Assembly (NCBI GenBank): GCA_009784815.1
Contig: WQXN01000007.1
Location: 1-43,098, forward strand
Source: Alphaproteobacteria bacterium
GTDB lineage: Bacteria > Pseudomonadota > Alphaproteobacteria > Rs-D84
Reading direction: 5' to 3'
Length of the DNA stretch: 43,098 nucleotides
Shown here: in pieces, positions 1,853 to 42,979 of the stretch
Position numbering within the stretch: position 1 is the stretch's first letter
How the letters are laid out: each line of letters begins with the position of its first letter
Notes under the pieces: model-generated
Databases searched by the model: none
The model's input: only the letters and a program-made list of their open reading frames with translations
What the model was told of the DNA's origin: nothing
Position numbers and translations under genes: made by a program

Positions 1853-4084
1853 ATGAGGATATTGAAAATTTTTCCTGTAATCGCGGTTGCTTTTGCTGCT
1901 GTAGCGGCGCAGGCCGCGGTCAGGGTCGAAGTTAATTACGGCGAAACTGAAACAATTTCCGCGGGCGTGTCGGGATTGGAATACTATGGGCCCAACGGCG
2001 GAGGAATGCTTGCCAATTATTCCGGCGATGTAATTATCGCAAGCGGACTTATGTTTTCGGGAAACAAGGCCGACGCCGGCGGCGCGATTTACAACGCTCC
2101 GGACAGCACCATAATCAATCCTCCTTATCCTCCGGCCGGACTTTCCATCGGCGACAATGTGATATTCTCGCGCAATGTCGCGGTGGTTGACGCGGGCGGC
2201 GCGATCTACATGATGGGTTATGACGAGCCTTCAACGCTTGTCATGCAAAATCGCGTGTCGTTTTTGAACAACAGCTCGCTTTACGGGTGGGGCGGAGCGT
2301 TGTATCTGCAAGACGCCACGACCGTAATCGGAGACTTCGCCGCATTCCGCGGAAACACCGCCGGAACGCACGGAGGAGCGATATTCAATTGGAATTATCA
2401 GGCGGATCTTGGAAGCGCGACGCTTGGAACCAATTCTTCATTCATCAATAATTCCGCCGCAGTGAACGGCGGCGCGGTCGCGAATTACTACAGCCAAATG
2501 TCTTTCGGCGCGGGCGCAAATTTTTCAGGAAATTCGGCCAAGGGGTTGGGCGGCGCGATTTACAACAGCGAAAATTCCACCATGACGTTCGGGGGAAGCG
2601 CAGCGTTTTCGAACAACAGCGCGGGATTGGCGGCGAACGATATATACAACGCCGGGACTTTGATATTTTCAAGCGGCACCGTGACGCTTGACGGAGGAAT
2701 CGCCGGACCCGCGGGAAGCGTTTTGCAGTTCGGGAACAACGTCGTGTTGAATGCCAGGCTTGGCAGCGCTCCGACCATTCAGGCAGACAGCATACAGGTC
2801 GGAAGCGGAAGCGTTATAAACAATCTTACGATTGGGATCGGAGTTTTGGGAGACAATATAAAGTTGTTCGATGCCGGGACCATGACCGGAAGCTTTAATT
2901 ATACCGGCAGCAATTTTTTGTATGACGTAACGCAGAACTTGGACGGAAGTTTCAATGTAGCGCAGAGGACTTCTATAGCCGGAGTAGATCCAAACGAACT
3001 TGCCGTGCTGAACGGCATTACGACCGGCCTTTCAAGCAACGCCCAGTTCAATGCGATCGCGAACGGAATATCAGCATTGGCCCAGTCCGGAAAACCCATC
3101 GATATAGCCGCCGCTTTGGCCGCCGCCGGCGAGCTGGCCCCGTCGCCAGCTCCGCAATCGCAGGTAGTGTCAACGCAGACCGCGCTTGTGGTGATCGACG
3201 CGGTTGGAACTAGATTTTCCGGCGGGTCGGCGCCCGCGTTCGGAATGTCTTCGGGCGATTTGGACGTCGGAGGCGGAGCGGTGTGGGCGCAAGGAGTGGC
3301 CAGCAACGCAAGGCTTAGAGGCGAGGGCGGATTCGATTCCGAGTCGATCGGGGGAGCCGTCGGAGTCGAGGTGAACGTTACCTCGTCCTCGAAGATCGGA
3401 GCGGGGTACGCTTATACCAGCACGGACGTTAATCCTTCGGTCGGAAAGATCGACGTGCGGTCGAACACCGTATTCGCTTATGCGGAATACAAGCCTAGAT
3501 CGCTGTTTTTTAACGGCGTAGTCAGCTATACGTTCGGAGATTACAGTGACGAAAAAAACATTCTTGGCGTAGAGGTCACAAGCACGCACCGCGCGAACGC
3601 GATCGCCGCTCAGGGATTGTTCGGATACGAGGTCGACAATGCCAAGCTTATCGTAACCCCGCAGGCGGGAGTGAGGTACATAAACGCCAGGCGCGAGGCG
3701 TACAAGGATTCGGCCGGGTCCCAGATCGAGGCCGGGTCTTCGGAATTTCTGACCGGGATCGTCGGGATAAAGTTCGCGTATGACCAGCTTGGGAATTTTC
3801 ACAGGTACGGAGGATCGGTGCCGGGCGGATCCAGAGTAATACCCGAAGTTTATATCGGCGCGACTTATGACGCGGTAACAAGCAATTCAGACGCGGCTTT
3901 GGTCTTGGCGAACGGAAGCGTAGTCGATATAGCCGGAAGCGCTTTGCCGCGCACGGCTTTGGAGGCGGGCGTCGGGTTCAACGTGATTTCAGGCAGCATC
4001 GATCTTAACATAAGTTATATGGGGCGGTTTCGCGAGAACTATACCGACAATACAGGAATGCTGTCGTTTAAGTACAGGTTCTGA
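1853..4084 (+). CDS. Autotransporter with Pmp-like GGAIYN/FxxN repeats
   Basis: This is a type V secreted adhesin-like protein of 743 residues. A signal peptide (MRILKIF, then an Ala/Val-rich core ending AAQAA) is followed by a passenger with about seven repeats of the chlamydial Pmp type: FSGNKADAGGAIYN, FLNNSSLYGWGGALY, FRGNTAGTHGGAIFN, FINNSAAVNGGAV, FSGNSAKGLGGAIYN and others (about residues 60-270). From about residue 475 on there is a 12-strand-type autotransporter beta-barrel ending in FKYRF with the terminal aromatic needed by BAM. The ATG at 1853 was chosen because AGGAGG lies 8 nt upstream; an upstream GTG at 1832 would bury that site in the coding region. The stop overlaps the next start by one base. 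Pmp-repeat passengers fold as beta-helices; adhesion is known for chlamydial relatives, while the role here is inferred. Confidence 0.9.
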   Translation: MRILKIFPVIAVAFAAVAAQAAVRVEVNYGETETISAGVSGLEYYGPNGGGMLANYSGDVIIASGLMFSGNKADAGGAIYNAPDSTIINPPYPPAGLSIGDNVIFSRNVAVVDAGGAIYMMGYDEPSTLVMQNRVSFLNNSSLYGWGGALYLQDATTVIGDFAAFRGNTAGTHGGAIFNWNYQADLGSATLGTNSSFINNSAAVNGGAVANYYSQMSFGAGANFSGNSAKGLGGAIYNSENSTMTFGGSAAFSNNSAGLAANDIYNAGTLIFSSGTVTLDGGIAGPAGSVLQFGNNVVLNARLGSAPTIQADSIQVGSGSVINNLTIGIGVLGDNIKLFDAGTMTGSFNYTGSNFLYDVTQNLDGSFNVAQRTSIAGVDPNELAVLNGITTGLSSNAQFNAIANGISALAQSGKPIDIAAALAAAGELAPSPAPQSQVVSTQTALVVIDAVGTRFSGGSAPAFGMSSGDLDVGGGAVWAQGVASNARLRGEGGFDSESIGGAVGVEVNVTSSSKIGAGYAYTSTDVNPSVGKIDVRSNTVFAYAEYKPRSLFFNGVVSYTFGDYSDEKNILGVEVTSTHRANAIAAQGLFGYEVDNAKLIVTPQAGVRYINARREAYKDSAGSQIEAGSSEFLTGIVGIKFAYDQLGNFHRYGGSVPGGSRVIPEVYIGATYDAVTSNSDAALVLANGSVVDIAGSALPRTALEAGVGFNVISGSIDLNISYMGRFRENYTDNTGMLSFKYRF

Positions 4085-40829: not shown

Positions 40830-41550
40830 TTTGGACCTCTTTGAGTTTATTTATTATGTTGTTTTTTTGAGCAATCTCCAAGAGTTGCATGGCTTGGTCG
40901 TCCGAAATTTCCTTTGCGGGTTCGGCCAGCGCCCATTCCGGGTGATCAGCGAAAGTATATTCCATAACGGCGTCCGACATTTCGTATCCGTCCAGGACGA
41001 ATTTCGCCGCGACGCGCGCTATTATTTCGCGCTCGGATTCATAGTTGCACCAGCAGCTTTCGTCGTCGCCGTAATTGTATGAAACGGTTTTGTGTAGGTC
41101 GAACACTATGCTTGCTCCCTTATGATTCACGATCAGGTTTTTGATGTTGTAAGAATTCATGAATTGTCTTGGAGTTTTGTCCAGGGCTTTCAGGCTATTG
41201 ACGTCCGTCGACACTACAAGAGCGCCGTGGTTCGGTATCAGGCCAAGCGATTGTATCGAGTTAATCGGCTGGCCGTCGAGTTTCAGATCTACCATGACAG
41301 GGACAAATTCGTTGGTGTCAGCAAGGATTTTGGGCAAAACGTTGCCTTGTTCGTTTTCGCAGATCACGATCAGGTCTTTTGTAGTAGGCTTGAATCCTTT
41401 TGTGGGTATCGATTTGTTGACTTGGGCTGGATCGATTCCCGGGATATTAGTTATATAGTTTGCGACTAGGTCTTTCATGGTTTCTCTACCCGCAAGCTTT
41501 TCTTGGGCTTCTTTGAATCTATTCAAGTTGTCTGTTACGTATATTGCCAT
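40822..41550 (-). CDS. Unknown protein, first gene of the leucine-rich-repeat operon
   Basis: The 242-residue protein has no signal peptide or membrane segment and I do not recognise it. Segments of note are RETMKDLVANYITNIPG, TTKDLIVICENEQGNVLPKI, LGLIPNHGALVVSTDVNSL and DDESCWCNYESEREIIARVA. The ATG at 41550 was chosen because AAAAGGGAG lies upstream; a longer frame from 41625 would run through the promoter. A strong promoter (TTGACA-17-TATTAT) precedes it. The gene is divergent from the helix-turn-helix/Rossmann gene at 41744, which is a candidate regulator or partner. Confidence 0.55.
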   Translation of the reverse strand: MAIYVTDNLNRFKEAQEKLAGRETMKDLVANYITNIPGIDPAQVNKSIPTKGFKPTTKDLIVICENEQGNVLPKILADTNEFVPVMVDLKLDGQPINSIQSLGLIPNHGALVVSTDVNSLKALDKTPRQFMNSYNIKNLIVNHKGASIVFDLHKTVSYNYGDDESCWCNYESEREIIARVAAKFVLDGYEMSDAVMEYTFADHPEWALAEPAKEISDDQAMQLLEIAQKNNIINKLKEVQNG

Positions 41551-41612: not shown

Positions 41613-41636
41613 TAATATTTGGCAATAATATTCTTA

Positions 41637-41711
41637 TATAGGAATAATTAATTACTTTAATTGGGATAATTTTATAAAAATTGCTTGAAATTTTGTAGTA
41701 TTATTCCTATA
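41637..41711. promoter_or_regulatory. Paired 12-bp inverted repeat, candidate operator
   Basis: TATAGGAATAAT (41637-41648) and its exact reverse complement ATTATTCCTATA (41700-41711) lie 63 bp apart, close to six helical turns. The right half covers the end of the spacer and most of the -10 of the gene at 41744. The left half lies between the two divergent promoters. Confidence 0.55.
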
Positions 41712-41743: not shown

Positions 41744-42979
41744 ATGCAATTTATGACTGTGAGCGAGGCAGCCACGCGGTGGGGGATTACCGGGCGAAGG
41801 GTAATCGCTTTGCTGAACGCAGGCCGCGTGAATGGCGGAGTAAAGAGTGGCAAGTCGTGGTTGATTCCGGTCGATACGGCGCGCCCTTATGACGGGCGGT
41901 CGCATTATGCAAAGGTTGCGCCGCGAGCGAAGCGCATAGCGGTAGTCGGAGCAAATACTTCGCTTGGCGCGGCGGTTTCGGATCTTCTTGGCGGCAACGG
42001 ATATGAAGTAATCGGGTTTTCGTCCGATTTTGATCATGCCGGCAGCGTTTATTTGAACTATAACAATTTGGAATCCATGCGCGCGGTTTTCGATTCTATG
42101 GACGGGTACTTGGACGGTTTGCTTGTCGTGGATGATTTCGCGCGGGCGGATAACGGACTTGGTTTTGATTACTTAGATTTCGAGCGCGAGTTCCGCGAAA
42201 AAATTCTTCCGATGAATTTTATCGTCCGCGAGCTGGTCAAAAAAATGAACTATCAGTCCGGCGTCGTATTAGTAAATCCAAGCGATGAAAATTTCGTTTC
42301 GCGCACTGCGCCGCAGCTGTCCGAGCTTTACGGAATTCGCATAAATTCCATCACCGCAAAAGTCGACGAACATTATATTTCCGATCTTGCCGACGACGCT
42401 TATCTTTTGCTGACGCGGCACAAGTATATTACCGGCATTAATATAAAACCGGATATGGATTCGCTTGATCTGGATTCGCGCAAGCGGAGTTCGGATATGA
42501 ATTCCACGCGTTATTATGCCTGGCTGCACAGGCTTTATTCCAAGGCCAAGCCGGGAGACCATATATGGGTTGCTACCAAATTATCCAACAAGGTCGAATG
42601 GGTCGACAACGCTATGGAGCGCCAGTTCAAGCAGGACAATATGGACGCCGCGGGGCGCGGAGTCAAGATCACGCGCATATTCATGTTCCAGGGAAAAACC
42701 GAGCGAAAAAATAAAAAGAATCAAAACATCCGAGATTATGCGGCGAATCCGCGAATGAATATTTTGTGGGTGGATACGGACGCTTTGAAAAAACAGGCGC
42801 CCGGTTTATTGCAAAAAATCGGCGACGGATGGGGAGGAATAAACGACGATATTCTTATGGTGGATCTTCCAAGCGGAGAGCAGGGCGAGGCCTATGGGTA
42901 TGTGATCATGAATCAGAAAGACATAGCAGACGCCAAGCGCGCATTCAACGAATTGAAAAAGTTTGCAATGGCTATATGA
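41744..42979 (+). CDS. Helix-turn-helix, Rossmann (SDR-like) and unknown C-terminal domain fusion
   Basis: The 411-residue protein seems to have three parts. Residues 1-50 are an excisionase/MerR-like DNA-binding domain (MTVSEAATRWGITGRRV, ending SGKSWLIPVDTARPYDGR), a form common in Firmicutes. Residues 62-235 resemble an SDR Rossmann fold: a nucleotide site IAVVGANTSLGAAVSDLL, a GLLVVDDFARAD strand and VVLVNPSD before SELYGIRINSITAKVD; the Tyr-x3-Lys catalytic pair is not evident. Residues 255-411 (AKPGDHIWVATKLSNKVEW, RGVKITRIFMFQGKTERK) are unknown and recall PLD-like sensor domains. The right half of an inverted repeat covers its -10, suggesting autoregulation. Palindromic repeat copy 5 follows. 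The function is unknown. Confidence 0.6.
   Translation: MQFMTVSEAATRWGITGRRVIALLNAGRVNGGVKSGKSWLIPVDTARPYDGRSHYAKVAPRAKRIAVVGANTSLGAAVSDLLGGNGYEVIGFSSDFDHAGSVYLNYNNLESMRAVFDSMDGYLDGLLVVDDFARADNGLGFDYLDFEREFREKILPMNFIVRELVKKMNYQSGVVLVNPSDENFVSRTAPQLSELYGIRINSITAKVDEHYISDLADDAYLLLTRHKYITGINIKPDMDSLDLDSRKRSSDMNSTRYYAWLHRLYSKAKPGDHIWVATKLSNKVEWVDNAMERQFKQDNMDAAGRGVKITRIFMFQGKTERKNKKNQNIRDYAANPRMNILWVDTDALKKQAPGLLQKIGDGWGGINDDILMVDLPSGEQGEAYGYVIMNQKDIADAKRAFNELKKFAMAI

Follow-up and report, generated by a model that had tools for sequence, protein, structure and literature searches.

A predicted autoregulated transcription regulator with two pseudoenzyme domains and the divergent gene it may control in Alphaproteobacteria

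The general plan of a DNA-binding domain joined to a dinucleotide-fold domain is known from Rex, in which a helix-turn-helix (HTH) domain is combined with a Rossmann domain that senses NADH, and in the SDR oxidoreductases the NNAG, YxxxK and glycine-rich motifs all have established roles in catalysis. In the archaeal regulators TrmB and TrmBL an HTH at the N-terminus is combined with a C-terminal effector domain of phospholipase-D (PLD)-like fold. TrmB is described (PMC4158304) as an HTH and an effector domain, with palindromic sites, autoregulation and action as repressor or activator, and the sugar-binding residues of its C-terminal subdomain are named.

Here we describe P0001, a protein that resembles each of these only in part. 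At the level of fold, it shares with TrmB/TrmBL the N-terminal HTH and the C-terminal PLD-like domain, but the HTH is of another type, an SDR domain lies in between and identity is 9–17% over the aligned part. With Rex it shares the general plan, although both the HTH and the Rossmann family are different and the cofactor motifs have been lost in P0001. SDR oxidoreductases (FabG, YmfI-like) have the same fold as its middle part and are the best sequence matches to it, but in P0001 NNAG and YxxxK are lost and the domain is fused with HTH and PLD-like domains. Finally, its N-terminal 60 residues are like the HTH_17/excisionase-type regulators of Firmicutes, of which a related one next to bcrR on an enterococcal plasmid is a stand-alone gene of 65 aa and another forms a Fic-type fusion in a phage, in both cases with no SDR or PLD part. 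No description of an HTH-SDR-PLD fusion was found in the literature searched, which mostly did not extend to subscription journals. We regard P0001, with a probability of about 0.72, as an autoregulated one-component transcription regulator with two pseudoenzyme domains that controls a divergent gene, C2.

The stretch of DNA analysed (the window, 43,098 nucleotides) makes up the whole of contig C7 in an assembly of 828 kb and 86.8% completeness. P0001 (41744..42979, + strand, 411 aa) is a complete open reading frame with an ATG start and exact coordinates, and the three parts that the first-pass annotation had proposed for it, HTH, SDR-like Rossmann domain and C-terminal part, are all real. 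Relatives along the full length reach 65% identity in genome G025 and 43% in G001, and comparison with the relative at L013 gave dN 0.26 and dS 1.87, a pattern that points to purifying selection on the coding sequence although dS is close to saturation; because of both the relatives and this pattern P0001 is not taken for a chance ORF. Homologues with the same domain order were found in metagenome-assembled genomes (MAGs) of Alphaproteobacteria and Bacilli, and the family was named at 11 loci in MAGs of Alphaproteobacteria/Rickettsiales, Bacilli, Erysipelotrichaceae, Tenericutes and Clostridia. Among 100 genomes near that of the window (its own included), six carry the fusion, in 3 of 45 genera. 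A phage or plasmid origin was considered and rejected; no relative was encoded on viral contigs, phage matches were limited to the HTH plus a little more, and plasmid matches were HTH or SDR-like stretches.

The DNA-binding domain occupies residues 1–60 (41744..41923, + strand). P0001 itself matches HTH_17 below the Pfam cut-off (E=0.017), and its assignment comes from the relatives, 11 of 13 family members (alignment A1) matching HTH_17 with a best E of 7.6e-8, in line with the Firmicutes-type excisionase-like HTH recognised at first sight. In the same scan PF01978, the TrmB-type winged HTH, had no match in the 13 members, a missing match being no proof. Enterococcal plasmids carry stand-alone relatives of the HTH, which share 58% identity with L016 over 62 aa, and a Streptococcus phage (Javan422) encodes a fusion of a related HTH with a protein annotated as Huntingtin interacting protein E-like, which we take to be Fic-type. 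One 65-aa HTH gene akin to the P0001 N-terminus, on an Enterococcus plasmid (L110:3001-3198), immediately precedes bcrR, one of the bacitracin-resistance genes.

Residues 61–248 (41924..42487, + strand) form an SDR-fold domain in which NNAG and the segment with S..YxxxK are missing. The sequence match to SDRs is weak in P0001, while among its relatives adh_short_C2 is matched with E=4.5e-27 at best; in the predicted model, of moderate pLDDT here, residues 61–240 align to SDRs with Z about 18 and 2.6 Å over 165 residues, so that the Rossmann SDR fold is present. The state of the active site was read from an alignment of 20 proteins, 17 rows of the HTH family (including L023, an ORF without the HTH) and three SDR-PLD proteins that have no HTH. 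The latter have TGASRGIG, LNAG and YSISK, and a fourth such protein outside the alignment (L039) has LNAG and YSISK too. None of the 17 HTH-family rows has NNAG, and this holds for L023 as well. The active-site segment is retained in 12 of them, and in each of these 12 NNAG has become F(M/L)EI and the catalytic Lys has become Gln (YxxxQ) with the Tyr retained. The remaining five, from the window, L013 and L003 (Alphaproteobacteria) and L077 and L072 (Bacilli), have the segment deleted, so P0001 has no Ser-Tyr-xxx-Lys active site at all. The classical TGxxxGxG cofactor motif is incomplete as well, the outer glycines (G69, G75) being invariant and the middle one variable, Ser in P0001. An ordinary enzyme, the outcome of structure prediction that would have spoken against anything unusual here, was thus rejected as an identity for P0001, the active-site residues being lost. 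For the 12 YxxxQ members, which keep Ser and Tyr, some catalysis may still be conceivable judging from their residues. In a tree built from the C-terminal domain, where two GNAT rows are long branches of unsure placement, rows without the segment fall in three separate places. Parsimony among the HTH rows requires two changes for this segment, but three losses are likelier, because regain of a deleted segment is implausible.

These residues also bear on a reading of P0001 as a Rex-like sensor of NAD(P)(H) or redox state, in which the SDR domain would bind the dinucleotide and pass the redox state to the HTH. Sensing of a nucleotide cofactor had been suggested by the first-pass annotation, and the predicted SDR fold together with the two invariant outer glycines is what such a sensor would have. 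The variable middle glycine, the F(M/L)EI replacement, the Lys to Gln change and the five deletions argue the other way, NNAG and YxxxK being lost in every HTH-linked member, and we now find a redox sensor unlikely. Under the regulator reading given above, the SDR domain would be a pseudoenzyme retained for ligand binding or as a structural element.

The C-terminal domain, left unplaced at first, could be placed by structure prediction. A Foldseek search with the full P0001 model had returned both SDRs and TrmBL2, for which reason residues 249–411 (42488..42976, + strand) were folded alone. The AlphaFold2 model (pLDDT 91.6, pTM 0.86) has the phospholipase-D fold, and structure comparison matched it to NucT (Z 15.7, 2.5 Å over 140 residues), Nuc (Z 14.6, 2.9 Å over 140 residues), TrmBL2 (5box; Z 14.0, 2.6 Å over 132 residues) and TrmB (2f5t; Z 12.3, 3.1 Å over 130 residues). 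No convincing Pfam family was found for this part in any of 13 family members, and the HxK of HxK(x)4D is absent from the last 165 residues in all 17 HTH-family rows. A PLD fold shared with known proteins shows no function by itself; by analogy with TrmB, such a domain without the catalytic motif could serve effector binding and/or dimerisation.

The same module also ends GNAT acetyltransferases (L064/L025, L068/L040) and SDRs without the HTH (L037/L069, L038, L039, L073). Each of the four genomes found to encode an HTH-less SDR-PLD protein (G103, G104, G107 and G592, all Bacilli) also encodes an HTH-SDR(YxxxQ)-PLD protein. A much diverged PLD-like end is seen in proteins of about 319 aa at L066, L067 and L070 (the last cut by the contig end), each adjoining a FabG-like SDR. 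The module is rare: it was detected in 2/392 genomes in the phylum of G103 (G103 itself and a weak match with stops), in 9/241 genomes in the order of G103 (a figure that takes in G103 and G104 and contains at least one false match, G645), in 2/398 in the phylum of G110 and in 2/398 in that of the window, these last two each comprising the seed and one weak match. The G645 match looks by eye like a RecG-type helicase. Along with G161, G783, G1143 and a match of G001 in L010 that holds a stop, it was among the weak matches (stops or other genes) that we left unused.

A palindrome, approximately ATTATTCCGAATTCGGAATAAT, is common to the upstream regions of the P0001 family in Alphaproteobacteria and Bacilli. 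In Bacilli it overlaps a TTGACA...-10 promoter, mostly 18–20 bp ahead of the start, and in Alphaproteobacteria it lies mostly between the divergent genes. In the window, the predicted operator is AATATTCTTATATAGGAATAAT (41627..41648), which scores 14.9 under a matrix derived from upstream regions of Bacilli, the best of all 43,098 bases (next 12.9). When each group was searched with the matrix from the other, the predicted operator was found upstream of 6/6 Alphaproteobacteria and 11/11 Bacilli/Clostridia genes, the training being not fully independent because the matrix seed had been picked by eye from all sequences. For the six Alphaproteobacteria upstream regions 0, 0, 0, 0, 1 and 1 of 500 shuffles reached the observed score, and for the 11 Bacilli/Clostridia regions 0/300 did in ten and 1/300 in L017. 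Over eight Alphaproteobacteria sequences, each of the seven best sites of the Bacilli matrix (14.8 or more; next 13.7) is upstream of either the HTH gene or C2. The promoter of a related stand-alone HTH gene of an Enterococcus plasmid contains a similar site (score 14.1); upstream of the HTH-Fic-type gene of phage Javan422 no site scoring 9 or more was found, only repeated half-sites, noticed by eye. The Clostridia member of the family (genome G110; L104:6418 and 3614-3635) is an ORF without the HTH, yet has retained the operator 19 bp upstream.

Elsewhere such sites are scarce. The window's own genome has four at up to one mismatch, against two for the reversed control, with little beyond the one at 41628, and because of this scarcity no regulon beyond C2 is supported. 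In 10 Bacilli/Clostridia genomes, searched with up to two mismatches, a site was found at the promoter of the family gene itself in eight, and the extra operator-like sites in G103, G104 and G110 were in coding or unclear regions. Further operator-like sites occur in G110 (contigs C5, C16 and C22), one of them a perfect palindrome within a 529-aa ORF. In the Bacilli loci, the genes next to the operator included no common target. With the operator nearly confined to the family's own promoter in Bacilli and Clostridia, and with few sites in the window's genome, this looks like a local regulator.

The gene that faces P0001, C2 (40822..41550, − strand), encodes a 242-aa protein of no assigned family. 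Its start is most likely at 41550 and not at the TTG at 41625, going by a ribosome-binding-like stretch that precedes 41550 and by homologues that also open with MAI(F/Y). C2 had no match in Pfam or NCBIfam, nothing convincing among PDB profiles (best E=0.46), and in PHROGs only a family of no known function (E=0.016). Over the 100 genomes, own included, it is present in all six with the fusion and in one (G028) of the 94 without, and its co-occurrence with P0001 is significant by Fisher's test both by genomes (p 5.9e-9) and by genera (7e-5, at three of 45 genera versus none); kinship is uncorrected, and in the count by genera g11 is entered as having both genes on the strength of G025, though G028, also in g11, carries only C2. 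In G028, which has no P0001 relative, no listed operator site stands upstream of C2. C2 is the divergent neighbour, with the operator in between, in five of the six fusion genomes (G000, G001, G002, G003 and G025), a short ORF, read by eye, lying between promoter and C2 in G001.

The sixth, G072, has the HTH gene on contig C31 and C2 on contig C1, so that the two are not neighbours. Here (L064:10667-15125) C2 is the first of several genes on the same strand, followed by an APH-type kinase, a FabG-like SDR, a GNAT-PLD protein and an alpha/beta hydrolase, and this run is itself headed by an operator 3 bp from TTGACA, whose score of 18.9 is the best of the 15.4-kb stretch (next 11.7). The run looks like a small-molecule pathway, and it is likely that this C2-headed operon is a target of the HTH-SDR-PLD protein.

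The proposal that P0001 controls the divergent operon therefore remains likely for the first gene, C2, and falls for the operon as a block. Downstream of C2, P0002 (39753..40829, − strand) is an orphan present in 1/60 genomes, its own, and in 0/59 others, and neither it nor P0003 (38282..39733, − strand), a BspA-type leucine-rich-repeat protein, is claimed here as part of the system. Leaving aside L017 and L020, which are syntenic in general, the only recurrent neighbour of the P0001 family is C2, and none of the Bacilli and Clostridia loci, as stretches around the family gene and not whole genomes, contained a match to it.

The 193-bp intergenic region of the window accommodates two predicted promoters. 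That of C2 (41584..41612, − strand) has TTGACA (41612-41607) and TATTAT (41589-41584) separated by 17 nt, and that of P0001 (41685..41713, + strand) has TTGAAA, 17 nt and TATAAT, with an operator half-site, ATTATTCC (41700-41707), within the spacer. The gap from operator to the TTGACA of C2 measures 14, 14, 4, 3, 4 and 3 bp (window, L013, L003, L018, L014 and G072, respectively), i.e. two classes (3–4 or 14 bp) that are one helical turn apart, and the gap to the −35 of the HTH gene itself is 36 bp in 4/5 (window, L013, L018 and L014) and 24 bp in L003. This geometry would suit a protein that contacts RNA polymerase at C2 from one constant face, or one that binds two sites jointly.

The computations show the domain architecture, the lost catalytic residues, a conserved operator and the co-occurrence with C2. 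We infer that a dimer of P0001 would bind the palindrome through its HTH and control C2, probably in response to a ligand, and that through the half-site in its own promoter it would also restrain its own gene. As to the direction of control, the operator stands just upstream of the C2 −35, where the regulator could touch RNA polymerase, and the one-turn gap classes, which suggest contact from one face, slightly favour activation over repression. The C2 promoters are near consensus (9–11 of 12), which disfavours a need for an activator.

It might be argued that P0001 is mainly an effector or enzyme, its HTH regulating only its own gene while the SDR and PLD domains together work on a metabolite. 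The self-directed operator in most of the Bacilli/Clostridia genomes, where a second shared target was not found, would agree with this, as would the HTH-less SDR-PLD paralogues that keep LNAG and YxxxK. Against it, all HTH-linked members have lost the active-site residues, the PLD domain is without HxK, and in Alphaproteobacteria a second gene, C2, bears the operator; we give this reading little credence. That P0001 belongs to a conflict or defence system as HTH sensor with effector C-terminus, an early suggestion for which little more was found than a weak similarity of L016 to the mad1 HTH (E=0.016) and the fusion in the Streptococcus phage, is highly improbable given that among the four proteins of the window PADLOC (E up to 0.1) matched only P0003 (E=0.042), and not P0001, C2 or P0002, and that there is no HxK nuclease motif, no relative on viral contigs and no recurrent neighbour beyond C2 save for the L017/L020 synteny.

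Returning to the regulator reading, a more tentative and on balance doubtful extension of it is that the regulator arose as an inactivated copy of a pathway enzyme, one that would have gained an HTH, lost catalysis and had its active site deleted two or three times. The pathway would be an undescribed one for a small molecule, with one PLD-like module in both its enzymes and its sensor, and the regulator and its operator would be common to Bacillota and Alphaproteobacteria.

If true, this would be a traceable case in which two enzyme folds were made into a transcription factor while living paralogues retain the active site, and one predicted operator would be common to two phyla. A use would also have been found for a rare PLD-like module without a Pfam match, and for the C2 family there would now be a promoter and a regulator to test, together with its genomic context.
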